The notes under the pieces: generated by a model
Told to the model about the DNA's origin: nothing
Database searches by the model: none
The model's input: only the letters and a program-made list of their open reading frames with translations
From: an uncultured Candidatus Saccharibacteria bacterium
Lineage (GTDB): Bacteria > Patescibacteriota > Saccharimonadia > Saccharimonadales > Saccharimonadaceae
DNA length: 57,897 nucleotides
Assembly: GCA_947165975.1 (NCBI GenBank)
Contig: CAMVCL010000005.1
Span: 1 to 57,897 of the forward strand
Direction: 5' to 3'
In this document: one piece after another, positions 1 to 49,214 of the stretch
Layout of the letters: each line of letters begins with the position of its first letter
How positions within the stretch are numbered: the first letter of the stretch is position 1
Translations under genes and position numbers: made by a program

Positions 1-171
1 TCACTCTATCTCAGCTATTGCAAGAAGTAGCTGTTCCATCTGACGAATAGCCTCACGATACTTCTGCCTCTTTTCTGCATCATTGGTTGCAAAAGATTCG
101 TCCATGTAGTCGTCGATCTTCGCAACCAGTATTTCTTTAAAGCTATTGTTCTTGGTTTGTTTTGTAGACAT
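1..171 (-). CDS. Small 56-residue protein of unknown function
   Basis: A complete short reading frame with an ATG at 171 and a TGA at 1-3. An ideal Shine-Dalgarno AGGAGG lies about 7 nt upstream of the ATG, which makes translation credible. The peptide is charged and mostly helical in character (runs such as KRQKYREAIRQMEQ and LLLAIAEIE near the C-terminus), with no cysteines or membrane segment. A 22-residue frame at 183-251 lies immediately upstream on the same strand and could be a leader or the end of a larger decayed gene. A damaged copy lies at 2501-2585, so the two copies flank the FISUMP gene. It might belong to a retroelement or integrative cassette outside the window, but I do not recognise the family. 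Confidence 0.6.
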   Translation of the reverse strand: MSTKQTKNNSFKEILVAKIDDYMDESFATNDAEKRQKYREAIRQMEQLLLAIAEIE

Positions 172-559: not shown

Positions 560-2407
560 ATGTTAAGAAATAAAAAGATAATGATTACTCCATTAGGACT
601 AGTTGGGTTAACTATCCTTTCTGGAGCATTTTTAATGTCTTCTTATTCTTTTGCAGAAGATAGTATAGTAGATAACGTCAACATCACGGTCCCAGTCTCT
701 TGTTCTATAGAAGGTACCGGTATGAATACTCACAATGCCAATATCATCAACGGAACCTACCAAGCAGATATAGGCACTACTACCATGAAAGCCTATTGTA
801 ATGATAGTGAAGGCTTTGCTATCTATGCTATAGGTTATACAGACAATGAATATGGAAAAACAGTCCTAACAAATAGTACCCTAGGTACTTCTGCTGATAT
901 AGCTACTGGAACAGCTACAAGTGGTAGTACGTCTAACTGGGCGATGAAACTAGCTACTAATACAGGTGCTACCTATGCCTTAACTCTAGATAATGGATTT
1001 GGTAGTTATAGTTCAGTACCAGCAACTTATACTAAAGTCGCACATAGAGATAGTGGCACAGATACAGGTACTAGTGCCACTGGCTCAGAACTGACTTCAA
1101 CCTATGCAGCTTATATGAATCAAACTCAACCTGCTGGAACTTATGCTGGGCAAGTGAAATATACTTTAGTCCATCCAGCTAATGAAGAACCACTCCAGCC
1201 AATAGCCTGTGAAGCTGGGAAGATATGCTATAACGCCAGTTCCAGCACAGTACAAGGACAGATGGGAGACCAATCATTATTGGCAAAAGATTGGAGTAGT
1301 TGCGCAGATACAGATAATGAGACATATTGTTACGATAACGACGGGCATGAAATTGATATTAATACTCTCCCAGAATTGCCTGATCAATACGTAGAAAACA
1401 CTGCACTTTGGGCCTCTAACTTCAAACGAGATGGTTATGGCTTTGCTGGTTGGAATACCGCATTTGACTACTCGGGCACTTACTATGGTCCCAACCAAAC
1501 CATCACTGTTCCAGCTGATGTAGAAACAAACGGCCTATCTCTCTATGCTGTCTGGATCAAATCCGCTGGTTCACTTCAAAACTGGGATGGATGTTCTAGT
1601 CTAGCAAGTGGTGCTACTACTGCCCTCACAGACGAAAGAGATAATAACACCTACGCCGTAGCCAAACTCGCCGATGGTAAATGTTGGATGATAGAAAACC
1701 TGCGTCTAGCAGACAAAGACAGCAGTAATAACGACATAGAACTATCTAGCATTAACACCCACAACCCATCTCTCCCTCTCACCAATGATTACGCCAGCTC
1801 AACTACATCTAATCACCTATCCCCAACCACAGATCCAACTACTACTGCCTGGTGCCAAACCCACTCCTCTGCCTGTGATGATCAGTCTATGCTAGCCACC
1901 AATAACACCACTCTCTTCACCAATAATACTGCCTCAAGTTACAATGCCGATGGTGACGTATATAGTTATGGCAACTATTACAACTGGTATTCAGCTACAG
2001 GTGGTCATGGTAAATATGGTAGTTCCTACGGTTCTAGCTTTACTGCCCCAGGTGATATTTGTCCAGCAGGCTGGCATCTACCAACAGGCAAAGATGCTAC
2101 AGGTGACTTCGGTGTCCTAGATATTGCTTTAGGTGGTACAGGTGCATATTCAAATTATAGTACTACTCCTACTGGATCCACTATGTCTGGATTGTGGCGT
2201 TCTTATCCTAATAACTTTGTCTACTCTGGGTACGTGTATGGTTCGTCGGTCGACGGCCGTAATTCCTACGTGTACTATTGGTCGTCTTCGGCGGGCAGTA
2301 GCAGCCGCGCCTACGTCTCGCACTTCGGCAGTGAAACCGTCAGCCCAGGCACGGTCAGCAGCAACAAGAACTACGGGAGGATGGTGCGTTGCGTCGCTGG
2401 CGTGTAG
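560..2407 (+). CDS. Secreted FISUMP-domain surface protein, candidate DGR target
   Basis: 615 residues. Residues 1-33 form a signal peptide (hydrophobic LGLVGLTILSGAFLM, then SFAEDS). Residues about 35-210 are a beta-rich module that recurs in the Hint-domain protein at 9190-12462 (shared features: NNW/NWAMKL, P.GTY...V.Y). Residues about 255-335 resemble a Listeria-Bacteroides (Flg_new/InlB-B) repeat with WNT...G..Y and L..YAVW. The C-terminal half is a FISUMP domain (YAVAKLADGKCWMIENLRL, ICPAGWHLPT, GRMVRCV), a fold related to the C-type lectin/FGE scaffolds used by DGRs. From about base 2229 the DNA turns markedly GC-rich, unlike the rest of the gene, and a perfect hairpin follows the stop. 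A role in binding host or neighbour surfaces is inference. Confidence 0.8.
   Translation: MLRNKKIMITPLGLVGLTILSGAFLMSSYSFAEDSIVDNVNITVPVSCSIEGTGMNTHNANIINGTYQADIGTTTMKAYCNDSEGFAIYAIGYTDNEYGKTVLTNSTLGTSADIATGTATSGSTSNWAMKLATNTGATYALTLDNGFGSYSSVPATYTKVAHRDSGTDTGTSATGSELTSTYAAYMNQTQPAGTYAGQVKYTLVHPANEEPLQPIACEAGKICYNASSSTVQGQMGDQSLLAKDWSSCADTDNETYCYDNDGHEIDINTLPELPDQYVENTALWASNFKRDGYGFAGWNTAFDYSGTYYGPNQTITVPADVETNGLSLYAVWIKSAGSLQNWDGCSSLASGATTALTDERDNNTYAVAKLADGKCWMIENLRLADKDSSNNDIELSSINTHNPSLPLTNDYASSTTSNHLSPTTDPTTTAWCQTHSSACDDQSMLATNNTTLFTNNTASSYNADGDVYSYGNYYNWYSATGGHGKYGSSYGSSFTAPGDICPAGWHLPTGKDATGDFGVLDIALGGTGAYSNYSTTPTGSTMSGLWRSYPNNFVYSGYVYGSSVDGRNSYVYYWSSSAGSSSRAYVSHFGSETVSPGTVSSNKNYGRMVRCVAGV
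2229..2406 (+). other. Candidate DGR variable region (C-terminal tail of the FISUMP gene)
   Basis: The last ~59 codons are abruptly GC-rich, with many codons ending in C (GTC, GAC, GGC, TAC, TCC, AGC, CGC, GCC, CAC, TTC). This is what results when AAC-type codons of a template are mutated at adenines. The final ~30 bases are G/C-rich and could be the initiation-of-mutagenic-homology segment. Position (extreme 3' end), fold class and downstream hairpin all fit DGR targets. No reverse transcriptase or template repeat is in the window. Confidence 0.5.
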
Positions 2408-2443
2408 AATTATCCTAAAAGTTTAAAAAAATATGTTACAGAT

Positions 2444-2473
2444 TAATACCGCTGGACAATCCCAGCGGTATTA
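2444..2473 (+). other. Perfect 12-bp hairpin after the FISUMP gene
   Basis: TAATACCGCTGG at 2444-2455 pairs perfectly with CCAGCGGTATTA at 2462-2473 around a 6-nt loop, starting 37 bp after the stop codon. No T-run follows, so it is a poor intrinsic terminator. In characterised DGRs a stem-loop just 3' of the variable region is needed for efficient retrohoming, and this one is in that place. Confidence 0.6.
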
Positions 2474-2500: not shown

Positions 2501-2585
2501 TCACTCTATCTCAGCTATTGCAAGAAGTAGCTGTTCCATCTGACGAATAGCCTCATGCATCATTGGTTGCAAAAGCTTCGTCCAT
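2501..2585 (-). pseudogene. Decayed copy of the small ORF at 1-171
   Basis: Bases 2501-2555 are identical to 1-55. Then 20 bases present in the first copy (56-75) are missing, and 2556-2585 again match 76-105 with one change. The 20-bp deletion shifts the frame and the upstream part is largely lost; fragments resembling the first copy continue weakly to about 2624. The duplication brackets the FISUMP gene and borders the transposase gene. Confidence 0.8.
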
Positions 2586-2621
2586 ATTCATAGATTCACT
2601 ATTGTAGACATATAAATGTCA

Positions 2622-2633: not shown

Positions 2634-3770
2634 ATGAAAAGAAGAATAAAACTTGCTAAGAAATATAAAATATTACAGCTATACTATGAAGGAGTTTCTG
2701 CCGAATCACTATGTAACGACTACCATATTGCACATAGTACTCTATATAAATGGATTACAGATTACCCTAGAGAAAATATAATACGAGCAAAACTAAAAAA
2801 GGATGATATTATCCACCTTCCTCGTATGATCAGCCATACAAAAAAAATTGAAGCTGAAATAGATTTCTTACATCGTACTGTCACTGATCACATGTCTCTT
2901 AGAGAACGTATGAAGATAATAGATAACGAGTATGGCAAAGAAAGTCTCCATGTACAATGTGATGCACTAGGAATAAATCGTACAACATATTTAAATCATA
3001 AATACTATGGGAAGAACGAAGATGCATGGTTTATTAAACGTGAAGCTGAATATACTGAAATAATTAAGAAAATATATGAAGATAGTGGACACGTATATGG
3101 AGCTAAAAAGATTGCAGCCATAATGAAGAAAAGTGGTAAGCCAGTTTCCGAACACTATGTCCGTAGAATTATGGCTAAATCTGGATTAATAAGTGCAAGA
3201 AGCTCTACACGCAAAGACCATCTCATCGTTGCAAGAAACATGCGTGAAGCGGCTCAATCTAGTCAGAACTTCAAACCAAATGCTCCTAACCAGGTATGGG
3301 TTAGTGATGTTACAGCTGTGTGTATCCATGGGCATTATTATCATATTTGTGTCTTTATTGACCTGTTCTCCAGAAAAGTAGTGGGTTATAACGTTGGTAG
3401 GAACGGCAGTGTCCAGCTAATTAAAAAAGCATTCCTTAAAGCTTTTAATGATAGACAACCAAAGTCATTGATTATTCATACAGATAACGGAGCAACCTAT
3501 ACTTCATATAGTTTTAATAGAACTCTTTTAGAACGAAAAGTTAAACACTCTTATTCGCGCCCAGGTGTTCCACATGACAATGCAGTAGCAGAGACTTTCT
3601 TTAATTCATTGAAACGCGAATCATTATTGCGCGACGATTATCCTCGCTCACTCCGAGACCTTAAGGATCGTGTAGATATTTATATGGAATGGTATAACGC
3701 TAAACGATTGCATGAGCATCTGAATTACGTTGCGCCAGATGTCTATGAGGAACAATATAAAACAAAATAA
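2634..3770 (+). CDS. IS3-family transposase, single-frame
   Basis: 378 residues. Residues 1-50 are a helix-turn-helix (YYEGVSAESLCNDYHIAHSTLYKWI), followed by a linker, an HTH_21-like segment (about 115-185, YGAKKIAAIMKK) and an rve integrase core with the DDE triad: D in WVSDVTAV, D in HTDNG and E in AVAETFFNSLK. The C-terminus has the WYNAKRLHEHLNY signature. In most IS3 elements orfA and orfB are separate and joined by a -1 frameshift; here both parts lie in one uninterrupted frame. The gene appears intact. Clear terminal inverted repeats could not be fixed; palindromes GACAT-ATAA-ATGTC at 2608-2621 and GGAC-TTTT-GTCC near 3814 lie close to the likely ends. Confidence 0.85.
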   Translation: MKRRIKLAKKYKILQLYYEGVSAESLCNDYHIAHSTLYKWITDYPRENIIRAKLKKDDIIHLPRMISHTKKIEAEIDFLHRTVTDHMSLRERMKIIDNEYGKESLHVQCDALGINRTTYLNHKYYGKNEDAWFIKREAEYTEIIKKIYEDSGHVYGAKKIAAIMKKSGKPVSEHYVRRIMAKSGLISARSSTRKDHLIVARNMREAAQSSQNFKPNAPNQVWVSDVTAVCIHGHYYHICVFIDLFSRKVVGYNVGRNGSVQLIKKAFLKAFNDRQPKSLIIHTDNGATYTSYSFNRTLLERKVKHSYSRPGVPHDNAVAETFFNSLKRESLLRDDYPRSLRDLKDRVDIYMEWYNAKRLHEHLNYVAPDVYEEQYKTK

Positions 3771-4179: not shown

Positions 4180-5193
4180 ATGAAAACTATTTTGACAGGG
4201 ATTCGTGTTAACAGTGAGTTGACAATGGGGAATTTCTTGGGGGCGCTTTTGCCGATGACGCGTTTAGCTAACAAATATTCAAAAGATAATCACGTTAATA
4301 TTTTTGTGGCGGATCTTCATACTATTATTGCGGAACAAGACGGCGCTTTGCAAGACAATTTATTGATGCTGATTAAAATGTATTTAGCTGCTGGGCTTGA
4401 AACAGGTGAAAATGTTCACATTTATCGCCAAAGTTATGTACCAGCTACTTCAGAAATGACTTGGATCTTGAATTGTGTAGCTACAATGGGTGAGCTTGGC
4501 CGGATGATCCAATATAAGGAAAAAGGCAAGGGTGAGGACTCTTGTAACGTGGGTATCTTCGACTATCCAGTGTTAATGGCGACAGATATTCTATTATTTG
4601 ATGCAAACTATATTCCGGTAGGTCAAGACCAATTCCAACATATTGAGTTGACGCGTGACATCGCGATTAGAGTCAACCACCGATTTAATGAAGACATCTT
4701 CACTGTTCCAGAAAAAACTTCGGAACAAGCTAAATTTATGGGTACCGATGACGGAATTAGAATTCGTGATCTTACGAATCCGGAAAAGAAGATGAGTAAA
4801 TCGGCTAAATCGGCGAATTCAAAGATTATGATGACCGATGAGCCTAAGTCTGCAGCTAAGAAAATTATGTCGGCGACGACTGATTCATTTGGCGAAATTA
4901 AATTTGATATGAAAGAACGTCCGGGGATCTCTAATCTATTGCAGATTGAGGCTTTGGTGAATGATCGGCCTTTGGATGAGGTAGTTAGGGAATGGGAAGG
5001 CAAGTCTAACTATGGTGACTTAAAGAAGCAGGTGGCAAAAAGTGTTGAGAAAATGCTGACAGAATTTCACGAAAAACTCAACAAGATTACTGATGAGGAG
5101 GTTTATGCATTAATGGAGACCGGTGAAAAATACGCTAATAAAAAGGCCAATACTAAATTATTGAAGCTACAGAAAGCTTTCCAATTAAGGTAA
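4180..5193 (+). CDS. trpS: Tryptophan-tRNA ligase
   Basis: 337 residues, normal for class I TrpRS. It charges tRNA-Trp in the cytoplasm using ATP; its tRNA is encoded at 28192. The HIGH-type motif is TMGNFLGAL near residue 15, the family signature VGQDQFQHIELTRDIA lies near residue 147, and the KMSKS loop is KKMSKSAKS near residue 208. A good Shine-Dalgarno (AAGGAGATGAT) precedes the ATG. The 125 bp between tRNA-Ala and the gene contain no recognisable T-box or leader. It is followed by the pseudouridine synthase gene, which has its own promoter. Confidence 0.96.
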   Translation: MKTILTGIRVNSELTMGNFLGALLPMTRLANKYSKDNHVNIFVADLHTIIAEQDGALQDNLLMLIKMYLAAGLETGENVHIYRQSYVPATSEMTWILNCVATMGELGRMIQYKEKGKGEDSCNVGIFDYPVLMATDILLFDANYIPVGQDQFQHIELTRDIAIRVNHRFNEDIFTVPEKTSEQAKFMGTDDGIRIRDLTNPEKKMSKSAKSANSKIMMTDEPKSAAKKIMSATTDSFGEIKFDMKERPGISNLLQIEALVNDRPLDEVVREWEGKSNYGDLKKQVAKSVEKMLTEFHEKLNKITDEEVYALMETGEKYANKKANTKLLKLQKAFQLR

Positions 5194-5194
5194 T

Positions 5195-5223
5195 TTGACA
5201 TTTTAGCATAAGCATGATATAAT
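5195..5223 (+). promoter_or_regulatory. Consensus sigma-70 promoter
   Basis: TTGACA at 5195-5200 and TATAAT at 5218-5223 with exactly 17 bp between them. The start site would be about 5230, leaving only a few nucleotides before the ATG at 5235. Confidence 0.85.
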
Positions 5224-5234
5224 AAGAGGTTAAG

Positions 5235-6113
5235 ATGATAGTAACTGGTAAGAAGTTTAGTAAACCGGAAATGTCACGTGTAATCAATGGTGACAAGGTA
5301 CTTTCTGACGCTCCTGAAGCTCCTGCGAAAAAACGTCTTGACCATATGATGGTGGAGATTTTCAAGAGCTACAATCGTTCGACTTTACAGAAATTTATCG
5401 AGAATGGATTCGTAAAGGTTGATGGCGTTGTAGCGAAAAAACCTAACCAAAAATTTGAGGATGGGGTTTATATAGAACTCGATGTCCCAGAAGAAATGAA
5501 AAATGCCGATATTGAGCCAGACGTGATCTATGAGGATAGTGATGTAATCGTGCTGAATAAGCCCTCAGGGCTTCTTAGTGAACCAAGAGGACAGTATTGT
5601 CCGGAAAAAACTTTGGCAGATTTTGGCTATATTGCACATCGATTAGACCGAGACACTTCTGGAGTGGTTATTTTGGGTAAAACTGAAGAAATACAACACT
5701 TCTTAAAAAGGCAATTTCAAGATAGAACCGTACATAAAACTTACGTGGCTGTGGTATGCGGACGACCAAAATTAGACGAAGCGAGAATTGATTTACCTTT
5801 AATTCGGGATTTAAAACGTCCGACGACTTTTCGAGTGGACGCTAACGGTAAAGAAGCGGAGACATTTTATAAGGTCTTAAAATCTAATGATAAATACTCG
5901 ATGGTGGAATTAAAACCTACTACTGGCCGTACTCATCAATTGAGAGTGCACATGAAATATCTTGGTCATCCAATCTTGGGCGATCCAGTCTATGGGATTG
6001 AGAAAGCTGACAGATTGTTTCTTCACGCACGTGAACTAGAAATCACTTTACCAAATGGGGAAAGAAAGACGTTTAAGGCGGACGTTCCGCAGGAATTTGA
6101 AGATGTATTTTGA
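5235..6113 (+). CDS. RluA-family 23S rRNA/tRNA pseudouridine synthase
   Basis: 292 residues. It isomerises uridine to pseudouridine in structured RNA. An S4 RNA-binding domain (about residues 34-90, RLDHMMVEIFKSYNRSTLQKF) is followed by the catalytic domain with the RluA motif HRLDRDTSG, whose Asp is the nucleophile, and the late motif GRTHQLRVHMKYLGHPILGD. The first 30 residues look unstructured, but the ATG at 5235 fits the promoter just upstream. The exact target site (RluC, RluD or other) cannot be told from sequence alone. The 3' end overlaps the next gene by 11 nt, so the two are translationally coupled. Confidence 0.9.
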   Translation: MIVTGKKFSKPEMSRVINGDKVLSDAPEAPAKKRLDHMMVEIFKSYNRSTLQKFIENGFVKVDGVVAKKPNQKFEDGVYIELDVPEEMKNADIEPDVIYEDSDVIVLNKPSGLLSEPRGQYCPEKTLADFGYIAHRLDRDTSGVVILGKTEEIQHFLKRQFQDRTVHKTYVAVVCGRPKLDEARIDLPLIRDLKRPTTFRVDANGKEAETFYKVLKSNDKYSMVELKPTTGRTHQLRVHMKYLGHPILGDPVYGIEKADRLFLHARELEITLPNGERKTFKADVPQEFEDVF

Positions 6114-6771: not shown

Positions 6772-7584
6772 ATGATAGCAGTGCTTGCGATTTTGTTGTT
6801 TGTGGTATATCTTTGTTTTTTCTTTCCTCTAGAACCGAAAGAGAAAAAAGTTGAGGAAAAGTCGCCTAAATACACCGCACAAATGAAAAAACTCTGGCAA
6901 GTGGCACAGACTTCGATGAAGGAGCGTAAGCCCTTCAAGGCCGAAAAGGCACTTTTGACGATTCTTAAATTCGATGAAAAAAATGCAGCAGCGTATAATC
7001 GGTTAGGGATATTATATGCGAAGGGTCAGAAATATGACGAAGCAGTAGAATGTTTTGAGATTGCTCAATCCCTTGATAATAATCCGGCTTCAATTCATAA
7101 TGTAGGTTTGATATATCTTGAAACTGGGGCTTATGAGAAAGCTGCGATGGCATTTCGACAGGCTATTGCTTTGGAGGGTGATGTTCCTTCGCGTCACATT
7201 GCTCTTGCAAAAGCAGAGGAAAAGATGGGCAATATGAAAAAATCTATTCAGGCCCTGGAGAGCGCCTATGAGCTTGATCCTAAGGTTTCAATCTTGCGAC
7301 AGATTTTGGCGATTTATGAAGAAACTGGTGACACTGAAGCTGCTACCGTTACTGCTGCTCGAATCGAAGAGCAGATAACTAAAGATAATGCCGCAAAAAA
7401 ACGAAAAGCTGCCAAGGCTATTGAAAAACGACCATTAGGACATGCTGCAATTCGCAATGTTCGAAAGACTGCCTCTAAAAATGTTTCTGTAGCAAAAAAA
7501 CCAACATCAGATAAGGCTAGCGTAGCTCCTTCCCATACTAATCGTAGAATTATCAAACCCCATGCGGGACGTAAGCGGATTTAG
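6772..7584 (+). CDS. Membrane-anchored TPR protein
   Basis: 270 residues. Residues 2-22 are a single membrane helix. Residues about 38-205 contain four to five tetratricopeptide repeats (for example AAAYNRLGILYAKGQKYDEA and SIHNVGLIYLETGAYEKA), a scaffold for protein-protein contacts. The last ~60 residues are strongly basic and rich in Lys, Arg and Ala, possibly binding nucleic acid or a cell-wall polymer. The N-out/C-in arrangement would place the TPR domain in the cytoplasm. The partner is not known. Confidence 0.75.
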   Translation: MIAVLAILLFVVYLCFFFPLEPKEKKVEEKSPKYTAQMKKLWQVAQTSMKERKPFKAEKALLTILKFDEKNAAAYNRLGILYAKGQKYDEAVECFEIAQSLDNNPASIHNVGLIYLETGAYEKAAMAFRQAIALEGDVPSRHIALAKAEEKMGNMKKSIQALESAYELDPKVSILRQILAIYEETGDTEAATVTAARIEEQITKDNAAKKRKAAKAIEKRPLGHAAIRNVRKTASKNVSVAKKPTSDKASVAPSHTNRRIIKPHAGRKRI

Positions 7585-7586
7585 TA

Positions 7587-7614
7587 TTGATTTTTGAACT
7601 ATTTTTGATATAAT
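7587..7614 (+). promoter_or_regulatory. Promoter of tRNA-Tyr
   Basis: TTGATT at 7587-7592, 16-bp spacer, TATAAT at 7609-7614; start about 7621, three bases before the mature tRNA. Confidence 0.7.
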
Positions 7615-7623
7615 TAAGGTACT

Positions 7624-7709
7624 GCTGGAGTCGTCTAGTGGCAATGACAAGAGACTGTAAATCTCTCGCGCTTCGCGCTTCGTTGGTTCGAGTCCAACCT
7701 CCAGCACCA
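7624..7709 (+). tRNA. tRNA-Tyr (anticodon GTA)
   Basis: A class II tRNA with acceptor GCTGGAG/CTCCAGC, anticodon stem AGAGA/TCTCT and loop CTGTAAA giving GTA. It has a long variable arm (GCGCTTCGCGC) and T arm TTGGTTCGAGTCCAA. CCA is encoded at 7707-7709. A degenerate copy of its 3' end occurs at 9061-9095. Confidence 0.95.
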
Positions 7710-7719
7710 AAATTAAAAT

Positions 7720-7740
7720 AGACCCGAAGGGTCTTTTTTT
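7720..7740 (+). terminator. Terminator after tRNA-Tyr
   Basis: AGACCC-GAA-GGGTCT followed by a run of seven T. The outer flanks AATTAAAA and TTTTAATT extend the pairing. Confidence 0.85.
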
Positions 7741-7754
7741 AATTTTGACATTGT

Positions 7755-7895
7755 GAGGTGGGACGAGAACCGTAGGTTCGGACGTCGTAGGAGCCGAGTG
7801 AAAATCTCAAATTTATTTGAGATTTTTTGAGGCGACGCCCGGCGTTGTTATTTTGCGAAGCAAAATAACTGTCCTGCCTCCAGCACTATTTTTTT
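7755..7895 (+). ncRNA. Candidate structured RNA: outer stem enclosing three hairpins
   Basis: GAGGTGGGAC (7755-7764) pairs with GTCCTGCCTC (7871-7880), ten pairs including two G-U. Inside are three helices. The first is GAACC-GTA-GGTTC (7767-7779). The second is an arm closed by 7780-7788 with 7832-7840 (one mismatch), capped by an 11-bp hairpin at 7801-7826. The third is a perfect 10-bp hairpin GTTATTTTGC-GAA-GCAAAATAAC (7847-7869). A seven-T run follows at 7889-7895. The text CTGCCTCCAGCACTA after it echoes the tRNA-Tyr 3' end. It could be a small RNA, a decayed tRNA-like element or an integration scar; no convincing promoter is visible. Confidence 0.4.
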
Positions 7896-9189: not shown

Positions 9190-12100
9190 TTACTCTTCGC
9201 CTTCTTTCTCTTTTGATAAGAGTATCGCAGCAGCTAAGGCAGTCGAAGTAACAATAGAACCAGCAATAATGGCATCGACTACAGGATTTTTCGAGCTGAG
9301 ATTGCCGTCGGTTGAACCAAGGACTTTTGTTTGTGGTTCAACATCCTTATCTATTTCAGATGTTTCATAATCTTGATCAACTTCTTCAGAGGAGGATGGA
9401 GTAGAATTCGAAGTAGAAGTCGTATTTCTTGACGCGGAGTTAGTATTATTGGTATTATTAGGTGTTTGATTATTAGTCTCAGGTGCTACTGGACAAAACT
9501 CTTCCTTAAGTCTTACTGAACCATCGCAATAATGTAGCCAAATATCTGTGTTGAGCTGATTACTGAGCAAATATCCTTTAAATGCTTCGAGTGTGATCCC
9601 GTACTTTGTAGCCAAGTATTTAGCTTCACGTACACGTAAATCATCAAACATCTTGCGTGGCATACCTATATCTTCAAAATCTTCATAGCTGTATAGATTA
9701 TTTGGATCGGACATCACTTCTTCACGTATGCTTGGCCATTTAATATTCTCATCGAAACCGTATAAGTTTGAAAGGTATACGGCGCCATCAGTTGTTATGA
9801 TGCCATTAGCTATGATGTTGTAATATTGACTAGATACTACGTGGTAATAGTGGACTTCTTCTTCGACTCTTTCGATACTAGTTACGGTGACTACTTCGAG
9901 CTGGTCATTCTCGTTAACTTTATATACCCTAGAACCAACTTTAAAATCTGGATCATCAATTGAAATGAATGCATTTCTATCTACATCAAATACACCATGC
10001 CAACCCGAGGTCTTTAATTCAGTTCCATCATCAAATTTTGTCAATTGGTAAGAGGTGGTGACGGCTTTTTTCTCAATCCATGCAGGATATTCAGCCCCAA
10101 CACTGCCTGTCTCGTAATTCCAGACTTTGAGTAGAGAGTCATAAGTTATATCTTCAATTGGTACGGATGTTCCGTCGGCAAGAGCGATCATAGTGCCTTC
10201 GATCAAACACCAGTTCCATGGACAGTTAGCAGTGACCACAATGTCGCCGTCAACTGGGATTTGTATAGTGATTACTCCATTAGAATAAGTGTATTGACTG
10301 GTGGTTAAGTCTCTGCCATTCATTTGAACAGTTATTGATCCTGGTAGATTGTACCCGCTGTTTGCCCTAATAGTTCCAGTATAACTGCCCCCCATTTGAA
10401 CTGTACTGCCATTGTTGCTTAGTGTACCATTTGTGATTTGGCCAGTGACAGTAAACGTCCATTTAATCTCGGTGTCTGCACTTCTGCTAGCATGGCCAGG
10501 GTTGGTGGTTGCAGAATCAATTTCTTGCTGTGTAGCTGAATTACCTTCATCGTCGTATCCTACTACAACGACACCATATGTGCCATCGGAAAGTCCTGTC
10601 AAATTATATGAAGTATCGTTGCCACTGATTCCAGTTATAGGGCTACCGCAAGTATAACTATCATTGGTTTTAGTGCAAGGATAAATAGAATAACTTGCTA
10701 CTCCGACATTATCTGTCCCGCTCCAAGTTACGGTTGCTGAACCTATTGTGTCATTACGTACAATTGCGACATCACTAATGATTGGAGCTTCTGTGTCTAC
10801 ATATGAAGGATCTTTGTCCACGTCTAATTTTAGGGTGCCGACGCTCGATTGGGCACCGTCATAGTCGATCACTACCGTACGATTAACATAGTCGCTACCA
10901 TATGTTGCACCGTTTGCTTTCTTGACATAGAAAGTATATGTGGAACTTGAATTTGCTGCAATGGTTTGAGCTTCTAAGAATTGTCCCGATGCATTTGTTA
11001 CTTGAAAATCGGAACCTAGTAGTTCAATCGTAAAGACTTTATCAGACGAAAAAGTATTCTGCACATTTATTTGGAACATTGCTAGTTCGTTGTCACCAGA
11101 TAGATCGCCTTCGTTCGAACCGTTAATATTGCCGGTGAGGGAACCAGTTTTATCCTCTACTGGATTAACTTCTATATCTCCCTCTACGGCATGTGTTCCC
11201 GATGCATAGTCTGCTGATAAGATCACATCGAAGGTTACTGAATCGTTGGCCGGGATTGTATCCCCTACTGAAATACCACTCAATTCGTAGTATACTTCAC
11301 TAGTTGTAGTTGACGATAATCGCAAGACTAGATTGGAGACAGGTGCGGTGAAGATATATCCATTTGACGTGGTATTCGTTATGGTCATGCGGTATCTTGC
11401 TGTAAATGTATTGTCATCCTGCGTTGTGCCAGATTTAAAAGTTAAATCGAAATCTACACTATTATCTCCGGTTACAGTTGGGTGCGGCGTGCCATTTACA
11501 TTTGTTCCTGAAACATAACTAATGGCAGTGATCTTTACGTCGCCAGTCTCGAGATATTCGTATCCATCTTCGATTGTGTAATTGATTCCAAGGGAATCAA
11601 TACTCACTTCTACATCAGTTTGTTCTGGAGTATGTGCTTTGGTGTTACACGTGATTATTAGTGTGCCGGTGCTGATGTTGCCTTTAGGATTGTCGCAGGT
11701 TAACCCACCTATCGTAACATTGATACCGTCAGGGATAAAATCTGTCATTAGAGAAGTTGTAATAGTTACGGTTTCACCTCCAGTTTTTGGACCAGATGAA
11801 GGCGTAATTGTTGCTTCACCACCAACGACGTCTGTAGCCTCGATTAGAGCGTGATACGAAACATGCGTTTCGTAGGTACCTGGTGTTGAAAGTACATCCT
11901 GCCCAAGTCTTATACCATAATACAGATTAAAACTATCTGTGCCCGATATAGCGCTCTGTACATTACGTATTAATGTATAACCAGGATTAACTTCTATGCC
12001 AGAGTAGGTGTTGCTTGATGAGGGAGCGCTGGGGTTATATGTGGAACTAAAATTATTTGCTGGCAAACCTGTGACTGTATTTGGTATACCAAAGCCCCAA

Positions 12101-12462
12101 TTATTTGCGTTAAGCGTATTGGCGGTAGCTGGGGTTGATCCCGTTAAACTAATCTTAGGGTCTGATGAATCTCCGTCGACCAGGATTAAATCACCCTGAG
12201 ATGCTTCGGAGCTTGGTATGCTGGCGTAAATTCTATACCCAGAAGGGGCATTAGTCGAAACAGACAATCCGCGTTGGATCATTTCGTATCGTTCAGTGTC
12301 TGTAGTACCAGGGACAGATATTCCTTGGTTTTGATTTTGGATACTAAAATCTACTGAATAATTATTTGGATTGATTGTAGCAAAAACAGATCCATGACTT
12401 TGAATGGAAAACAACAAAAGTAAGAACATAACAAAATATTTTTTTGTTTTAAATACTTTCAT
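9190..12462 (-). CDS. Large surface protein with IPT/TIG, Fn3-like and Hint domains
   Basis: 1090 residues. A signal peptide (1-30, FVMFLLLLFSIQSHGSVFA) is followed by an N-terminal module also found in the FISUMP protein (about 30-210). Next come an IPT/TIG domain (about 215-305, ITPSSGPKTGGETVTI), beta-sandwich segments, a fibronectin-III-like domain (about 555-640), and a Hint domain (about 750-890) starting at Cys in CLIEGTMI and ending near YYNIIANGIITTDG. Hint domains (hedgehog/intein) perform N-to-S acyl shifts and autocleavage. A Thr/Asn/Ser-rich stalk precedes a C-terminal membrane helix (about 1060-1080) and a KEKEGEE tail. No LPxTG is present. The His needed in block B may be H in GWHGVFD. 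A stalked adhesin or self-processing toxin-delivery protein are both possible. Confidence 0.8.
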   Translation of the reverse strand: MKVFKTKKYFVMFLLLLFSIQSHGSVFATINPNNYSVDFSIQNQNQGISVPGTTDTERYEMIQRGLSVSTNAPSGYRIYASIPSSEASQGDLILVDGDSSDPKISLTGSTPATANTLNANNWGFGIPNTVTGLPANNFSSTYNPSAPSSSNTYSGIEVNPGYTLIRNVQSAISGTDSFNLYYGIRLGQDVLSTPGTYETHVSYHALIEATDVVGGEATITPSSGPKTGGETVTITTSLMTDFIPDGINVTIGGLTCDNPKGNISTGTLIITCNTKAHTPEQTDVEVSIDSLGINYTIEDGYEYLETGDVKITAISYVSGTNVNGTPHPTVTGDNSVDFDLTFKSGTTQDDNTFTARYRMTITNTTSNGYIFTAPVSNLVLRLSSTTTSEVYYELSGISVGDTIPANDSVTFDVILSADYASGTHAVEGDIEVNPVEDKTGSLTGNINGSNEGDLSGDNELAMFQINVQNTFSSDKVFTIELLGSDFQVTNASGQFLEAQTIAANSSSTYTFYVKKANGATYGSDYVNRTVVIDYDGAQSSVGTLKLDVDKDPSYVDTEAPIISDVAIVRNDTIGSATVTWSGTDNVGVASYSIYPCTKTNDSYTCGSPITGISGNDTSYNLTGLSDGTYGVVVVGYDDEGNSATQQEIDSATTNPGHASRSADTEIKWTFTVTGQITNGTLSNNGSTVQMGGSYTGTIRANSGYNLPGSITVQMNGRDLTTSQYTYSNGVITIQIPVDGDIVVTANCPWNWCLIEGTMIALADGTSVPIEDITYDSLLKVWNYETGSVGAEYPAWIEKKAVTTSYQLTKFDDGTELKTSGWHGVFDVDRNAFISIDDPDFKVGSRVYKVNENDQLEVVTVTSIERVEEEVHYYHVVSSQYYNIIANGIITTDGAVYLSNLYGFDENIKWPSIREEVMSDPNNLYSYEDFEDIGMPRKMFDDLRVREAKYLATKYGITLEAFKGYLLSNQLNTDIWLHYCDGSVRLKEEFCPVAPETNNQTPNNTNNTNSASRNTTSTSNSTPSSSEEVDQDYETSEIDKDVEPQTKVLGSTDGNLSSKNPVVDAIIAGSIVTSTALAAAILLSKEKEGEE

Positions 12463-21194: not shown

Positions 21195-21974
21195 ATGAAG
21201 ATTGCAATATTAGGTGCGGGTGCATTTGGGACTGCACTCGGAGGAATTTTGGCCGATAATGGCTACGATATAGATTATTATGATCCAAAATTTGAAAAGG
21301 AAAATCTGTCCCAAGTGATTAATGGTGCAAAATATGTTGTGCTTTGCGCTCCATCTGGTTCTGTCTCATACCTATTACCTTATCTGCCTAAGAATATTCC
21401 CTTAGTCATTGCTACGAAAGGTATCCTATCAGATATGGTTTTTCGCGATTTTTCGGACTATATGATTATTTCTGGACCTGGTTTCGCGAAAGATATCAAA
21501 GCGGCAAAAGAAACTTGGTTTACAATTACTGATGATAGACTAGAAAAACTATTTAAAACTGATTACGTATTCTTTGACAAGACTAAAGACTCTAAGGGCG
21601 TATTGATGTGCGGTGCATTAAAAAATGTATACGCCATACAGGCTGGGTTGTTAGGATTAGAGCGCGAATCTTCGGCTTGGCAACGTTTTATTAGAAGTGT
21701 CTTAATGGAGATGCGAGAAGTTTTGGAGTTTAATGGAGCAAGCGGCGATACAGTTGATTTGGTTTGCGGTGTTGCGGACCTAGAGTTGACATGTGGCTAT
21801 CCTTCTCGTAATTTTGAATTTGGTGATATTTTGCGCAAAAATCCTAAATTCAAGCCTGAAAAGACTGTCGAAGGTTTTTCTGCTCTGAAACGCATCCGTA
21901 GAAATGAGATAATGATTCCGGATGAAGCGTTAATCCTCAAAAATATTATTAGAGAAAGCGAAACATGGGGCTAA
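21195..21974 (+). CDS. gpsA: NAD(P)-dependent glycerol-3-phosphate dehydrogenase, short
   Basis: 259 residues against about 330 in typical GpsA. Makes sn-glycerol-3-phosphate from dihydroxyacetone phosphate for lipid head groups. Rossmann motif GAGAFGTALGG at residues 7-17, catalytic Lys in GALKNVYAIQAG, and the C-terminal signature GVADLELTCGYPSRNFEFG. The shortening comes from loops in the Rossmann half and the C-terminal domain. Its last 10 nt overlap the helicase gene, so expression is coupled. Confidence 0.85.
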   Translation: MKIAILGAGAFGTALGGILADNGYDIDYYDPKFEKENLSQVINGAKYVVLCAPSGSVSYLLPYLPKNIPLVIATKGILSDMVFRDFSDYMIISGPGFAKDIKAAKETWFTITDDRLEKLFKTDYVFFDKTKDSKGVLMCGALKNVYAIQAGLLGLERESSAWQRFIRSVLMEMREVLEFNGASGDTVDLVCGVADLELTCGYPSRNFEFGDILRKNPKFKPEKTVEGFSALKRIRRNEIMIPDEALILKNIIRESETWG

Positions 21975-24900
21975 ATCAGAAACAAAAGGAAGCGGTAGAA
22001 TATCTCGAGGGACCACTTCTGGTTTTGGCTGGCCCTGGTACAGGTAAAACGCAACTATTGTCTGAAAAAGTTGCTTATATTTTAAAAAATACTGATACGA
22101 GTCCGGAAAACATTCTATGTATGACTTTCACAGAGTCGGGTGCTATGAATATGCGCGAACGTCTTAAATCTATTATTGGTAAAGATGGTGCCAAGGTGAA
22201 TATTAACACGTATCATGCTTTTGGTTCGGATATTTTGGCTCAATATAAGAATTATTCTGATCAATATGATCGAAAACTTGATGCCGCTATTGACGAAGTG
22301 ACTCAATTTAAGATCGTTAAAGATATTCAAAACAATCTAAATGGTAGAGATATTTTGAGGGGAGATAGCGTAAAAGATATAATTGCCGTGATTTCTTCAG
22401 CAAAAGCTGCAGGTTTGACCGCCGATGATCTTGGACGTATTGCTGAGGTTAATATGGCAGATTCTGAAACTCTCTCTAAAGCTATTTCTCCACTGCTCAA
22501 AAACATTGTTCCAAGAGTATTTCGGGAATCTTATGAAAATGCCTATAAGCCGATATATGAGATTCTGCAAGGCTATACTTCGGCTGAATGTATCGTGAAG
22601 AATATCGAGCGTTCGATCGGCGTGATGGCACGTGACTTAAAGGAGGCTTTTGTCTCTGCCGAACAAAACCAGAAAATTAAACCACTTTCTGAATGGAAGG
22701 ATAAATATTTTGAAAAAGATGCCAAAGGCAATTATCGTTTACGCGACCGAATTGCTAATAAGAAATTACTTTCGATGTCTAATATAATGGCTCAGTATGA
22801 CAAGTATCTGCATGAAAATGGTCTATTTGATTTTGATGATATGATACAAGAAGCTTTAAATATTTTACGAAATGATGCTGGTTTTAAGGCTACTTTGATT
22901 GAGAGATATCAAGTGATAATGCTAGATGAGTTTCAAGATACTAACCCTTCACAATTTGCGATTATTAAAGAATTAACCGATTATGAAAAACCTTTGGTGA
23001 TGGCGGTTGGTGATGACGATCAGGCTATCTATGAATTTCAGGGTGCCTTGTCAACCAATTTATCCGATTTTCAAGAATATTACGAAGCACATGTAATTGC
23101 CTTGGTCGAGAATTATCGAAGTACGCAAGAAATCTTGGATTTTTCACGTAAGATAATTAATCAGGCTTCCGATCGTTTTGCGGATAAGGAACTTTTTGCC
23201 CATCGTGAATCTCCTGTAAAATCTCAGATTTATCGCCACGAATTCTTATCTTCTGATATGGAATATGGTTTTATTGCAGATGAAATTGCCAAACTTATCA
23301 AGAAGGGTGTTCCGCAAAATCAGATTGCAGTTATCTCATACAAAACGAAATATTTTATCCCCCTTTTACCATACTTAAAATCTCATCCCGAGATTAAGAT
23401 TTCTTATGAAAAGAAGGATAATCTACTTGAAGATGAAAAAATGCATGAAATACTGACTTTAGCACGATATATCAATGAACTTGCTAATGACAAACGCCCT
23501 AAAACTTCGGTTATGGAAATACTATCTTATCCATTTTTTGGTTTGCCGGCCTTAGAGGTAGTTAGATTGATATCAAAGGCACGTACGGATAAGAAGCCAA
23601 TTTTTGATGCCTTGGCCGATTCGGATAACCCTAAAGTTCAGTTTGTAGCTAATTTTATTGCAGGTCTAATCACGAGATCCTTTAATGAGCCGCTTGAAAT
23701 CTTTTTAGACTATCTAATCGGTACGGCCGAGTTTGATGGGATACGTTCTCCTTTTTTGGAGTATTATACGAATATTGGAGAATATGAGGCATTTACTCTT
23801 TATGAAAGAATCGCTTCTCTTAGAGGTAAATTGCGTAAGCATTTTGGCGAGAAGAGTCTAAAACTAACTGATTTGATACAAATGCTTGACGATTATGAAG
23901 AAGCCGATATGCCTATTAATATCTTTTCACCATACCGTGAAGCTGATGAGGCTGTTTCGATTCTATCTGCTCACAAAGCTAAAGGTTTGGAGTTTGAATA
24001 TGTCTTTATCATTTCAGCAGATCACTTAGCTTGGGGTAAGGGAAAAGGAAATAACAACTTACTAAGCTTACCAAAAAATCTAACTCAGATTCGCCATACC
24101 GGTACTACTGACGGCGAAAAATTAAGAATTCTATATGTAGCCTTGACGCGTGCTAAACATACTCTATTTATTACTAATTCTCTACACGATTTTAACGAAA
24201 AAAGCCCGAATAGATTGGAGTATTTAGATGAATACGTTAGCAATGATGAAGTTTTTTCACCAATGATTCCCACGGGTAAGGTTTTGACACACTACGAAGG
24301 AGGCGCCTACGTTTTGTCCGAAAATAACTTAAAAAACTGGTTAACGCCATATATTAATGCTACTCCTGACATGAAAGCCATCTATAAGGAACGTGTTTCG
24401 CGTTGGCGTATGTCAGCTTCGGCTCTAACTTCGTTTATAGATATTGTCTATGCGGGCCCAGAATCTTTCTTTAAGAACTATATTCTACAAGTTCCTCATG
24501 AACCAGAGACAGAAGCTTTGGCGTTTGGTGATTTGGTCCACAAAACATTTGAAAAAGTTACGAATTCAAAATTAACTGATGATGATGCCATTGAGTATTT
24601 CCTGGGTGAACTTAATAAAAAAGAATTGCCGATTGAAACTTTACAAAAGATTCGCGATAAAGGCCCGGTAGATTTGAAAGCGGCCTTGGATAGCTTTGGT
24701 GATATTTTACGTCAAGGTAGGGCTGAAGTCGATTTAGGATCCGAAAAACTATCTATTGATGGCGTACCAGTAACTGGTAAGATTGACCATATTTTAATTG
24801 ACGAGAAAACTAAGACGATTGAGATCTTTGATTATAAAACTGGCGGATATCACAAAGAACGATGGCAATCTCATGCAACTTTATATAAATATATGTTGCA

Positions 24901-25192
24901 ACTTGAATTCTATAAGTTATTACTAAATAATTCTCCTACTTATTCTAAATATAAAGTTGAAAAAGCTCATATATTGTTCGTAGTTCCTGATAAAGATGGT
25001 GAAGTATATGATAAAGTATACGAGTATAACGAGACTGACGAAACCGAAATTAAAAGTCTTATTAAAACAGTTTACCGGTTAGTCTCCTCACTTGATTTTA
25101 TTTCCGACGAACAGATTCTTCTTCCGGCTAATAATAATCTAGGTATCAAAGACATTAAAGAATTTATCAAGCTATTGCTTGCTAAGTATTAA
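21965..25192 (+). CDS. UvrD/PcrA-type helicase fused to a PD-(D/E)XK nuclease
   Basis: 1075 residues. SF1A helicase motifs in order: I LAGPGTGKTQLL (about 20-32), II MLDEFQDTNPSQF, III AVGDDDQAIYEFQGA, IV ENYRSTQEIL, V HKAKGLEFEYVF, VI LYVALTRAKHTL. The C-terminal ~230 residues form a RecB/AddB-like nuclease with GxxVH (FGDLVHKTFE), D in GKIDHI and DYK in FDYKTGG. This makes it an AdnA/AdnB- or RecB-like end-resection enzyme in one polypeptide. No four-cysteine iron-sulphur signature is apparent. Start ATG 21965 lies inside gpsA. Confidence 0.88.
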   Translation: MGLNQKQKEAVEYLEGPLLVLAGPGTGKTQLLSEKVAYILKNTDTSPENILCMTFTESGAMNMRERLKSIIGKDGAKVNINTYHAFGSDILAQYKNYSDQYDRKLDAAIDEVTQFKIVKDIQNNLNGRDILRGDSVKDIIAVISSAKAAGLTADDLGRIAEVNMADSETLSKAISPLLKNIVPRVFRESYENAYKPIYEILQGYTSAECIVKNIERSIGVMARDLKEAFVSAEQNQKIKPLSEWKDKYFEKDAKGNYRLRDRIANKKLLSMSNIMAQYDKYLHENGLFDFDDMIQEALNILRNDAGFKATLIERYQVIMLDEFQDTNPSQFAIIKELTDYEKPLVMAVGDDDQAIYEFQGALSTNLSDFQEYYEAHVIALVENYRSTQEILDFSRKIINQASDRFADKELFAHRESPVKSQIYRHEFLSSDMEYGFIADEIAKLIKKGVPQNQIAVISYKTKYFIPLLPYLKSHPEIKISYEKKDNLLEDEKMHEILTLARYINELANDKRPKTSVMEILSYPFFGLPALEVVRLISKARTDKKPIFDALADSDNPKVQFVANFIAGLITRSFNEPLEIFLDYLIGTAEFDGIRSPFLEYYTNIGEYEAFTLYERIASLRGKLRKHFGEKSLKLTDLIQMLDDYEEADMPINIFSPYREADEAVSILSAHKAKGLEFEYVFIISADHLAWGKGKGNNNLLSLPKNLTQIRHTGTTDGEKLRILYVALTRAKHTLFITNSLHDFNEKSPNRLEYLDEYVSNDEVFSPMIPTGKVLTHYEGGAYVLSENNLKNWLTPYINATPDMKAIYKERVSRWRMSASALTSFIDIVYAGPESFFKNYILQVPHEPETEALAFGDLVHKTFEKVTNSKLTDDDAIEYFLGELNKKELPIETLQKIRDKGPVDLKAALDSFGDILRQGRAEVDLGSEKLSIDGVPVTGKIDHILIDEKTKTIEIFDYKTGGYHKERWQSHATLYKYMLQLEFYKLLLNNSPTYSKYKVEKAHILFVVPDKDGEVYDKVYEYNETDETEIKSLIKTVYRLVSSLDFISDEQILLPANNNLGIKDIKEFIKLLLAKY

Positions 25193-45884: not shown

Positions 45885-45959
45885 TGGGGATTCGCCAAGT
45901 GGTAAGGCAGTGGGTTCTGGTCCCACCATTCGGGGGTTCGAATCCCTCATCCCCAGCCA
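45885..45959 (+). tRNA. tRNA-Gln (anticodon CTG), integration site
   Basis: Acceptor TGGGGAT/ATCCCCA, anticodon stem GTGGG/CCCAC with loop TTCTGGT giving CTG, T arm GGGGGTTCGAATCCCTC, discriminator G, encoded CCA. The recombinase gene of the element to the right ends inside its acceptor 3' strand. Confidence 0.94.
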
Positions 45960-47527
45960 TTTTTTGTTTTTGAGTCCAAAAGGTTCCGAGCGAACGGTCC
46001 TGACCCCTGTAATATCAGTCCGCTAGGTCCTAAAGTTCGGTTCGAGCACGTGATGAGACCAATGAGGTCTCTTTTTTCGGCCGTCGTTGCAACGTCGAAC
46101 AATTTGTCGGCATATTTAAAGACTTTTAAGATATAGCCGGCGTTCGTATAGAAGTTGTCGTCAGCTCGATCTAGCGCGGCTTCTTGCGCCTGGATCTCAG
46201 CCAGCTCATTGCGATATCGCTCGTTATTTTGGTTATAAAGTTCCAGAGTAATACTCTTGTCCATCAACATATCGTAAGCTTCTTGCTGTCTAGCTTCTAG
46301 TTTCTTGCGCTTTTGAGACAAGCTTCGGCGTTGCTCGCGATAGAAATCTATCTTTCCGGCGTGCGCTTCGGCTAATGCCTTCCTTATCTCATCCAATTCA
46401 GTTTCAGTTAGTCTTAAACCTCGCAGGAATTCTTTTACCTTATCATCAAGATATTCTTCAGTGTAGCTTTTCATGCTTTTATGTACTCCGCGTCGGTTCG
46501 TACAGTGGTAGTATTTGTGATAATTGTAGCCCCCATGTCGTAGCTTACGCTTCTTAAATTCTGGCGTTATTGTACATCCGCACTCTTCACAGCGGATTAG
46601 TCCACGATAAGCCGATTCTATGCCACCATATTTCGGTACTTGGTCGTCGCCCTTAAGATTTCTCTTGTCTAATATCTGATTAACCATATCAAACAGCTCT
46701 CGATCTATTATCTTCTCGTAATTATGCGGATATTTCTTTCCGCCTTTTTTATCGATAATAAATCCGACATAAAACTCACATCTTAGGAATTTATGGATGA
46801 TTCCTTGCGAGAATTTAGTGCCGTATTTCTTATTCATTAGTCTGGCTAAGGTTCTACATGAATAAGTACCGGTCGAGAAGAGTAAGAATACCTCTTTTAC
46901 GATCGACGCGGCCGGTTCTACCGGAACGACGTTTTTAACCTTCGGTCTGACGCTAATAGTTCTAAATTCATAGCCATAAGGCGCGCTCCATGGTAACTCG
47001 CCGCGCGACAGCTTATTGATCTTCGTATTTAGGCCATCTTCCTTGATGCGGTTCAGATATTCCTGGCCCACAAAAACCTTCACATTCCAAGATGTGAGGT
47101 CGGTCGCGCGGCTATTTTCCGAGAGGATCAGCCTTTCATCAACGCAGTGGATGCGCTTGCCGTATTTGATGCGTAGATCTTCGATCGTTACCGCGTCGCG
47201 GAAGTTTCTAGTAATGCGATCTACGCGGAAGGCGATAATATCCGTTACATCTGGATTATCCTTTAGGAACTGAATCATCTCGTTGAAGCGTTTGCGCTCT
47301 TTATAGCTACCGCCAGTTTCGCCAATGGCGTATTCGCGCACGATCTTTAAGTTTTGCTCAATCGCATAATCGCGCATGCGCGGTAGCTGAATTTCATCGA
47401 GAGATAAGCCTTCTTTTTCTTGTCGCGCCGTTGATACGCGAGCGAATAGAACGGCTTTTTTGGTTAGTTGCGGCTCATTAGTTTTGCCGGTATTTACAGG
47501 GGTAGAGTTTCCCATGTTATCAAACAT
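45947..47527 (-). CDS. Large serine recombinase (integrase)
   Basis: 526 residues. Resolvase catalytic domain (24-170) with nucleophile Ser32 in FARVSTARQ and conserved Arg in AFRVDRITRNFRDA. A recombinase domain follows (about 185-290, RGELPWSAPYGYEF), then a zinc ribbon (about 305-345, RCEECGCTITPEF and YHC) and a coiled coil (about 375-445) of the kind that controls directionality. The last codons run into tRNA-Gln, placing the attachment core at the gene end. It would catalyse integration and excision of the element without host factors. Confidence 0.92.
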   Translation of the reverse strand: MFDNMGNSTPVNTGKTNEPQLTKKAVLFARVSTARQEKEGLSLDEIQLPRMRDYAIEQNLKIVREYAIGETGGSYKERKRFNEMIQFLKDNPDVTDIIAFRVDRITRNFRDAVTIEDLRIKYGKRIHCVDERLILSENSRATDLTSWNVKVFVGQEYLNRIKEDGLNTKINKLSRGELPWSAPYGYEFRTISVRPKVKNVVPVEPAASIVKEVFLLFSTGTYSCRTLARLMNKKYGTKFSQGIIHKFLRCEFYVGFIIDKKGGKKYPHNYEKIIDRELFDMVNQILDKRNLKGDDQVPKYGGIESAYRGLIRCEECGCTITPEFKKRKLRHGGYNYHKYYHCTNRRGVHKSMKSYTEEYLDDKVKEFLRGLRLTETELDEIRKALAEAHAGKIDFYREQRRSLSQKRKKLEARQQEAYDMLMDKSITLELYNQNNERYRNELAEIQAQEAALDRADDNFYTNAGYILKVFKYADKLFDVATTAEKRDLIGLITCSNRTLGPSGLILQGSGPFARNLLDSKTKNGWG

Positions 47528-47625
47528 AATACCCTAAACCTTTCATAAGTCCATACATTAAATGGACCTTTGGAGTTGGGCTATTCGCAACTAAAATAGC
47601 CGTAAAGAACCACCCTACATTTGCG

Positions 47626-48840
47626 CTAGTCTGGCCCAGCGCGCACCTTGTTTAATTCTGTAAAGTATTCAAGTAATCGTACTGGCTTAAACTCGGCCAG
47701 TTTATCTTCTATGTAGCTAGTAGAACTACTCTTTCTCGTTCTAAAGTAGATCTTTGATATTTTCTTCGTAAGCCTAGACCATTGTGCCGAGTTGGCGCCG
47801 GTCATCTTCCGCACATCTCGGCTTCCGGTTTCGCGCATTAGGCTCCATATCGCCAAAGTCTCTAGTCGTTGCGCCAAGGTCGCTTTTGGATTTAATGTAT
47901 TTATCTCATGAAGAAAGCTGGTAGCTGTATTCGTAATTGTTTCATTAAGGTCTAGATTCTTCGCCTCGATCTGCGCGAACTCATATTCTAATAGCGTCTT
48001 GGCTAGTTCTTCATTAAAGATATCTACAAAGACAAGCTTCTGTTTTATGGCCAGTCTTGTGACGTTGTCGCTCGCGCGGCCGTACTCGAGAGCGTGTTTC
48101 AGCGCTGTATTGAAAGCACGTTTCGTGTTGTATCGCGCTTCAACACGCACCACCTCAAAAGGCTTCTTGCTACGGATATTATCAAATAGCGTGAGTTGGC
48201 AGTAGTTATCTTTCTCGAGTAGTCCGCGCTCGCTGACGCGAGACTTAGCTAGTTCTCTTCGTTTATCGTAAATCGCTATGGCTTGGCTTGCGCTGTAAAA
48301 ATGCAGAGCCTCACCATCGTTCCGATAAACACGCATATCGGCTTGTTTTCTGGTCGATACATTTGCTTTTGCTATATCGCCAATTACACTTGCCGCAGTC
48401 CGGTAATCGTCAAAGACGATATTCTTGCCAAAGTGAACCGTCTTAACCTCGGCTCTTTCTATTTGGTTTCTTTTAATCTCGATTCCGAGCTTATATAGTT
48501 TGCGATAGAGTTCTGCGCAGACGGCTTTAAAGTCGCTAACACCAAGCTCATCGAAGTTATTGTTATAAAGAATCTTTGGTGCTGAAAATTCGATATGCAA
48601 GAATACGGATACGCCGCCGGCTCGTACAGCTTTCATGAGTGTTACGCGTGGCTGATATATGCCTAGCTTCTTATCTTTCGCTTTTAGCTGTAATACGCAT
48701 TTAATAACCTTGCCGGATCCAAAAGAATAATATGGCGGTCCAAAGATGCCATGAGCAGAAGGAGAAAACTTGTGATAGACGCTCGGGCTAATCCTGAAAT
48801 TGGGGTAGTTCACTCGGAGAATCACAGTATCGATCATCAC
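47626..48840 (-). CDS. Phage/plasmid replication initiator, gene II/X-like
   Basis: 404 residues. N-terminal MIDTVILRVNYPNF, the central LHIEFSAPKILYNNNFDEL and IAIYDKRRELAKS (conserved Tyr with following Lys), and VVRVEARYNTKRAF follow the order of motifs in filamentous-phage gene II/X and related rolling-circle Rep proteins. It would nick an origin, letting the excised element replicate or transfer as single strand. The 98-bp gap to the recombinase gene has two small hairpins (GTCCAT/ATGGAC; GGCTATT/AATAGCC) that could belong to an origin. Confidence 0.65.
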   Translation of the reverse strand: MMIDTVILRVNYPNFRISPSVYHKFSPSAHGIFGPPYYSFGSGKVIKCVLQLKAKDKKLGIYQPRVTLMKAVRAGGVSVFLHIEFSAPKILYNNNFDELGVSDFKAVCAELYRKLYKLGIEIKRNQIERAEVKTVHFGKNIVFDDYRTAASVIGDIAKANVSTRKQADMRVYRNDGEALHFYSASQAIAIYDKRRELAKSRVSERGLLEKDNYCQLTLFDNIRSKKPFEVVRVEARYNTKRAFNTALKHALEYGRASDNVTRLAIKQKLVFVDIFNEELAKTLLEYEFAQIEAKNLDLNETITNTATSFLHEINTLNPKATLAQRLETLAIWSLMRETGSRDVRKMTGANSAQWSRLTKKISKIYFRTRKSSSTSYIEDKLAEFKPVRLLEYFTELNKVRAGPD

Positions 48841-49105
48841 TAGCTCTCATTACATCTTCATATTTGCTAATCACTGCTTCTTCTATTTCTTGCCCGACAT
48901 ATCTGTCTATCGGGTAGAATATTCCGAAGCTATTCAGCCCAACCTTTTTGGTTGGAAAGGTGAGTCTATATGAGCCATCTAATCGCGTCATAATGCCAAC
49001 GGAACTGCAGTAGATCGTTCCGTATAGCACGAAGCTTGCGAAGGCCACTAGTCCGCCATGCGGCTTTACTGGCATTATTTCAATTTCCGATATAAAGCTA
49101 TTCAT
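48788..49105 (-). CDS. Small unknown protein upstream of Rep
   Basis: 105 residues from ATG 49105, which has AAGGATGA 8-9 nt upstream; an earlier ATG at 49129 is less well placed. It begins MNSFISEIEIMPVKPHGG and is beta-rich with the repeated feature V.AFASFVLYGTIYCSSVGI. The C-terminal sequence overlaps the Rep gene by 53 nt. The layout (small protein before Rep) resembles helper proteins of rolling-circle plasmids, possibly a SpoVG-like fold (SEIEIMPVKPHGGLVAFASFVL), which is suggestive but unproven. Confidence 0.6.
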   Translation of the reverse strand: MNSFISEIEIMPVKPHGGLVAFASFVLYGTIYCSSVGIMTRLDGSYRLTFPTKKVGLNSFGIFYPIDRYVGQEIEEAVISKYEDVMRASDDRYCDSPSELPQFQD

Positions 49106-49214
49106 TGTCGTCATCCTTATTAACGACATGCTCGCGCTTGTCTATATCGATTAATATTTCTAGAAACTTTACGAGCGCCTGTTGCTCTAGTTTCTTATCT
49201 TTCTGATACGTTAT
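49098..49214 (-). CDS. Tentative 38-residue ORF with apparent AUA start
   Basis: An open frame ending at TAG 49098-49100, overlapping the start of the following gene (AATGAATAG), as in coupled operons. It encodes a charged helical peptide (KDKKLEQQALVKFLEIL...DDDNE). No ATG, GTG or TTG occurs in frame; the only candidate is ATA at 49214 with AGAGG 4 nt upstream. It may use a rare AUA start or be a relic that lost its start. Confidence 0.3.
   Translation of the reverse strand: MTYQKDKKLEQQALVKFLEILIDIDKREHVVNKDDDNE

Follow-up and report, generated by a model that had tools for sequence, protein, structure and literature searches.

The diversity-generating retroelement (DGR) of Bordetella phage BPP-1 resembles the locus described here in its C-terminal variable region (VR), in differences biased towards adenine sites in AAC/AAT codons, in a conserved G/C-rich 3' end and in an inverted repeat after the stop. 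Unlike the BPP-1 target, however, the present one has no adjoining template (TR) or reverse transcriptase (RT), several targets share one scaffold, and the template was not found in the assembly. Among the trans-acting DGRs of Thiohalocapsa PB-PSB1 (PMC10907252), targets also lie away from RT and TR, and some VRs have no match elsewhere in the genome; for PB-PSB1, variants that retain an intact cassette were detected in the population, whereas the scaffold studied here is also common to distinct species. Treponema denticola SP32 (PMC4891356) likewise possesses a VR for which its own genome offers no template of the matching type, although it does contain a different DGR, but that case concerns one target in strains of one species, in contrast to a family of seven or more across species. 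The DGRs of CPR bacteria (DGR clade 2, Patescibacteria; PMC8144416) come from the same host group as our locus. The survey describing them states that remote targets are undetectable to it (PMC8144416); here, remote targets without a template are described directly. Remote and trans-acting targets of DGRs are already known, as is a leftover target lacking its template, while no description of a multi-copy family of template-less VRs with a cross-species scaffold was found in the openly licensed papers searched.

The window, that is, the whole stretch of 57,897 nucleotides that was analysed, is an entire contig (C5) of a Candidatus Saccharibacteria genome of 882 kb in 31 contigs (99.5% complete). 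A gene close to its start encodes a protein with a FISUMP domain (PF09603, E=3.5e-9; TIGR02145, E=1.9e-16) and, as read from the sequence, an N-terminal signal-like segment (Table 1). The original prediction had pointed to a GC jump confined to the last ~178 bp of this gene, to many NNC codons and to a G/C-rich gene end, and all three were borne out. The GC content of 2229-2407 is 60.3%, compared to 42.3% in the remaining gene and 39.2% in the contig, making it the GC-richest stretch of that length in the contig: only 7 of 57,719 segments of equal length reach this value, all of them overlapping the same spot. Codons with a final C account for 30 of 60 in this tail versus 131 of 556 in the remaining gene, GC3 is 80% versus 31%, and a conserved G/C-rich 3' end is found among the VRs. 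The gene thus carries its VR at the 3' end, closed by a conserved G/C-rich end, as is typical of DGR targets. A foreign GC-rich insert as the origin of 2229-2407 was rejected, because the tail aligns in frame with the family and retains FISUMP residues. DGR targets typically have a C-type-lectin/FGE-like fold. The structure model of the variable domain is confident (pLDDT 87, pTM 0.88); a fold search with it returned no significant match among solved structures (PDB), and its best viral structural match is another FISUMP protein.

Table 1 Features of the target gene and its flanks (positions in the 57,897-nt window).
Feature	Position	Strand	Basis or remark
Small 56-aa ORF	1..171	-	Homologues adjoin other VR genes and the serine recombinases of the contig-7 DGR
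FISUMP-domain surface protein gene (target)	560..2407	+	615 aa; ORF; PF09603; TIGR02145
Variable core, codons aligning with AAC/AAT codons of relatives' templates	2231..2380	+	Alignments, A-site statistics
Conserved, IMH-like G/C-rich 3' terminus with the stop codon (putative position)	2381..2407	+	ATGGTGCGTTGCGTCGCTGGCGTGTAG, near-invariant among VRs
Perfect 12-bp inverted repeat, 6-nt loop	2444..2473	.	Conserved at the corresponding locus in species G003; candidate DGR stem-loop or terminator
Second copy of the small ORF, internally deleted	2501..2604	-	First 55 bp are an exact repeat of the contig start

At least seven VRs of this family occur in the genome, namely the one in the window and others on contigs 25, 4, 2, 1, 21 and 17, together with some decayed copies. 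With adenine columns defined from the TRs that adjoin RTs in other species, the VRs of this genome differ pairwise on average by 52% at adenine columns and by 17% elsewhere, and 100% of the adenine columns fall at codon positions 1 and 2. Between the window VR and its sister on contig 25, 29 of 56 adenine sites differ as opposed to 10 of 124 other sites (p=2.5e-10). Across 15 other VRs, the Fisher p for this bias ranged from 0.03 to 2.5e-10, measured against the templates of other species, sister VRs and a consensus rather than against the cognate template. This concentration of differences at template-adenine columns supports the central claim of the original prediction, namely that this FISUMP surface protein ends in a variable region of the DGR type. 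At non-adenine sites, the window VR diverges from the consensus by 4% and other VRs by up to 23%; as this divergence is above zero, not all copies were written very recently. At the corresponding locus of species G003, identity to the window is 43% in the VR, 94% over the last 35 bp (2373-2407), 87% over the next 113 bp (2408-2520) and 60-80% in the framework, which is the pattern expected if only the interior of the VR had been replaced.

A perfect 12-bp hairpin downstream of the stop had also been predicted and is present, its stem separated by 36 nt from the stop of the target gene. Stems of at least 12 bp did not arise in composition shuffles of the contig, and the DNA fold z-score of 2444-2473 is -5.1. 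Perfect hairpins of 9-13 bp are also found elsewhere in the contig, some of them at gene ends, and a post-stop hairpin alone is therefore no sign of a DGR; downstream of the other VRs of the family lie unrelated hairpins or terminators. Copies of the 56-aa ORF flank the target gene on both sides, and the exact start of the contig at this repeat suggests that a further such unit upstream was left unassembled. Directly 3' of the VR, positions 2634-3770 encode an IS3-type transposase (rve, HTH_21), a 75% identical copy of which is located on contig 6. Further into the window, a 1090-aa secreted-looking protein (9190-12462, minus strand) gave no Pfam match at 0.001; by eye, one stretch of it (CLIEGTMIALADGT...NIIANGI) resembles a Hint/intein-type domain.

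A DGR with its own RT is encoded on contig 7 (L017, at 5071-5363 and 7560-7805) of the same genome and comprises a FISUMP target, a 306-aa ORF, a 379-aa RT and a template. The gapless 293-bp match between its VR and TR contains 35 mismatches, all of them located at TR adenines (24 to G, 10 to T and 1 to C). The match runs ~43 bp beyond the stop of the target, with adenine mismatches there too. The RT, situated between VR and TR, matches a PHROG reverse transcriptase (E=3.6e-67) and carries a YVDD motif as well as IGNLTSQ, a motif associated with DGR RTs; a DGR-type RT is thus present in the genome, without a link to the window VR. The 306-aa ORF between VR and RT (L017 5418-6338) has no family match; its location, together with a C-terminus that looks helical, would fit an Avd-like accessory protein. 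Two large serine recombinases are encoded directly upstream of this DGR (L017 332-3342), and their homologues adjoin a VR gene in G003 (L080 4222-7001). In all seven cassettes checked (L017, L073-L078), the template is encoded downstream of the RT and on the other strand, so that its RNA would probably need a promoter of its own. Cassettes with an inverted RT are known, though less common (PMC6642488).

No RT or template adjoins the window VR, which is therefore a remote target. In this regard, the prediction of a template and an RT outside the window was borne out in part: a DGR RT is encoded on contig 7, but the TR of that contig and the window tail belong to different types, and the genome search proposed at the time for an RT and a near-identical template yielded only VRs of the window type and no cognate TR. 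The query was a composed consensus template with AAC at the variable codons (predicted scaffold of the window-type template: GGTTCGTCGGTCAACAACCGTAATTCCAACGGGAACTATTGGTCGTCTTCGGCG...). As it recovers real templates beside RTs in many relatives, at ~82% identity, it would recover the cognate one too; in this assembly, which has gaps, it returned VRs only. The same query revealed no cognate template or RT in G003, G045, G096 and G157/G174 (97%, 77%, 86% and, for G157, 97% complete; G174 gives the same places as G157), and in G147 (91% complete) no RT was found and the sole match at the strict threshold was a VR. A weak RT-like match in G003 was rejected, the region reading as a tRNA-guanine transglycosylase. 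The window scaffold with adenine codons was not found in its own genome or in up to 170 genomes of the genus, nor in viral contigs, which were probed with two exact patterns and by a peptide search, nor in phage or plasmid records. The viral contigs yield other DGRs, with a similar template peptide and an RT ~34% identical to that of contig 7. At the contig ends of this genome, no pieces of an RT or of the ORF intervening between VR and RT were detected.

At non-adenine sites, the third-position identity of the window VR is 98% to G157a, 96% to G157b, 94% to G147, 89-93% to G3c and 91-92% to G3e (the last two depending on the alignment); summarised by species, this amounts to 98% for a VR of G157, 94% for one of G147 and about 92% for one of G003. 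The baseline from 52 orthologous or homologous gene pairs with G003 is a median of 48.6% with a maximum of 86%, and a helicase gene in the window (21965-25186) reaches 45% with G003, 49% with G147 and 43% with G157. Even the FISUMP framework, over the 600 nt upstream of the VR, shows only 52-71% third-position identity between the window gene and those of G157 (52%), G147 and G003. In the same cross-species VR pairs, the adenine columns are only 38-55% identical, so whole-gene copying or bin contamination as the cause of the shared scaffold was rejected. Furthermore, VRs and the TRs of other species share 52-72% at third positions; functional constraint therefore does not fix this sequence genus-wide. 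Two further pairs of RT-less genomes show what may be the same pattern (G026/G055, 96%; G036/G082, 91%). A near-identical scaffold in at least three other species, despite their diverged genes and genomes, argues that the template, and with it the writer, moved between species, which on this sequence evidence would be the best and simplest account of the sharing. That DNA can move between these species is indicated by window positions 45947-50058, likely an integrated mobile element. This region adjoins a tRNA-Gln gene and holds a serine-recombinase-like gene and neighbours with 92-99% protein identity and 81-86% third-position identity to G003; in most other genes, silent sites have reached saturation.

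We therefore regard it as highly probable that window 2229-2407 is a DGR VR written in trans, from a template that has moved between species. Reverse transcription of a template RNA with AAC/AAT codons would introduce errors at adenines, and the resulting cDNA would replace the 3' end of the FISUMP gene up to the conserved G/C-rich end, a retrohoming step to which the pattern of differences points. This would vary ~25-30 residues of the C-terminal domain, presumably to diversify ligand binding, and at least seven genes of the genome would owe their tails to a single template or to near-identical ones. The adenine-site bias and the cross-species scaffold are observed together with the absence of the cognate template and RT from the assemblies, and the writer may be lost, lie in an assembly gap or reside on an unbinned element.

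That the cognate template and RT are resident but were missed, in a gap of the assembly or on a small contig that was dropped, is a genuine if doubtful possibility. At least 9 of the 62 contig ends are inside FISUMP-family genes, the window contig begins exactly at a repeat, and the smallest contig measures 2772 bp, with the VR-to-TR part of a contig-7-like cassette taking up just ~2.2 kb; yet five further genomes of the VR family also lack both, RT cassettes were assembled in 96 of the 174 genomes of the genus, and a gap by itself leaves the sharing of the scaffold across species unexplained. It appears rather unlikely that the writer was once resident and is now lost, with the window VR persisting as an unchanging remnant of the kind suggested for Treponema denticola SP32 (PMC4891356). 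Loss would agree with the lack of a TR or RT of the window family in six genomes, with 17 of 59 genomes that have VR-like matches and no RT (12 of the 17 at least 92% complete), and with the graded decay of the scaffold among copies (4% to 23%). However, the window VR and several in other species are nearly intact at silent sites, so the loss would have to be of recent date or to have happened separately in every lineage. An alternative from the literature is a mixed population with the cassette retained in a subset of cells (PMC10907252).

Writing of the window VR by the contig-7 RT, the sole RT found in the genome, via a second template elsewhere is improbable: the TR beside it belongs to another type, a second TR was not found, and this RT is only 47-50% identical to those adjoining window-type templates in relatives. 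Ordinary FISUMP paralogues shaped by point mutation, selection and gene conversion without any DGR are scarcely credible, for although the genome has FISUMP domains at 25 places and rapid divergence is possible in families of this kind, the differences concentrate at template-adenine columns with near-identical silent sites within the genome, and the same pattern extends across species in whose genes the silent sites are otherwise saturated.

Returning to a VR written in trans, we tentatively propose, as a conjecture falling a little short of probable, that the DGR writers of this genus are mobile and transient: template and RT would travel between species on an element, overwrite resident FISUMP tails that have a matching 3' end, and then be lost or remain unintegrated. 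Unrelated species would in that case share a scaffold but differ at adenine-site residues. Since surveys anchored on the RT with a nearby search miss remote targets (PMC8144416), families such as this one are invisible to them. If the writer does move between species, DGR diversification would not depend on a resident cassette, and orphan VRs would preserve, in their silent-site scaffold, a record of past writer transfers that is readable from genome sequence alone.
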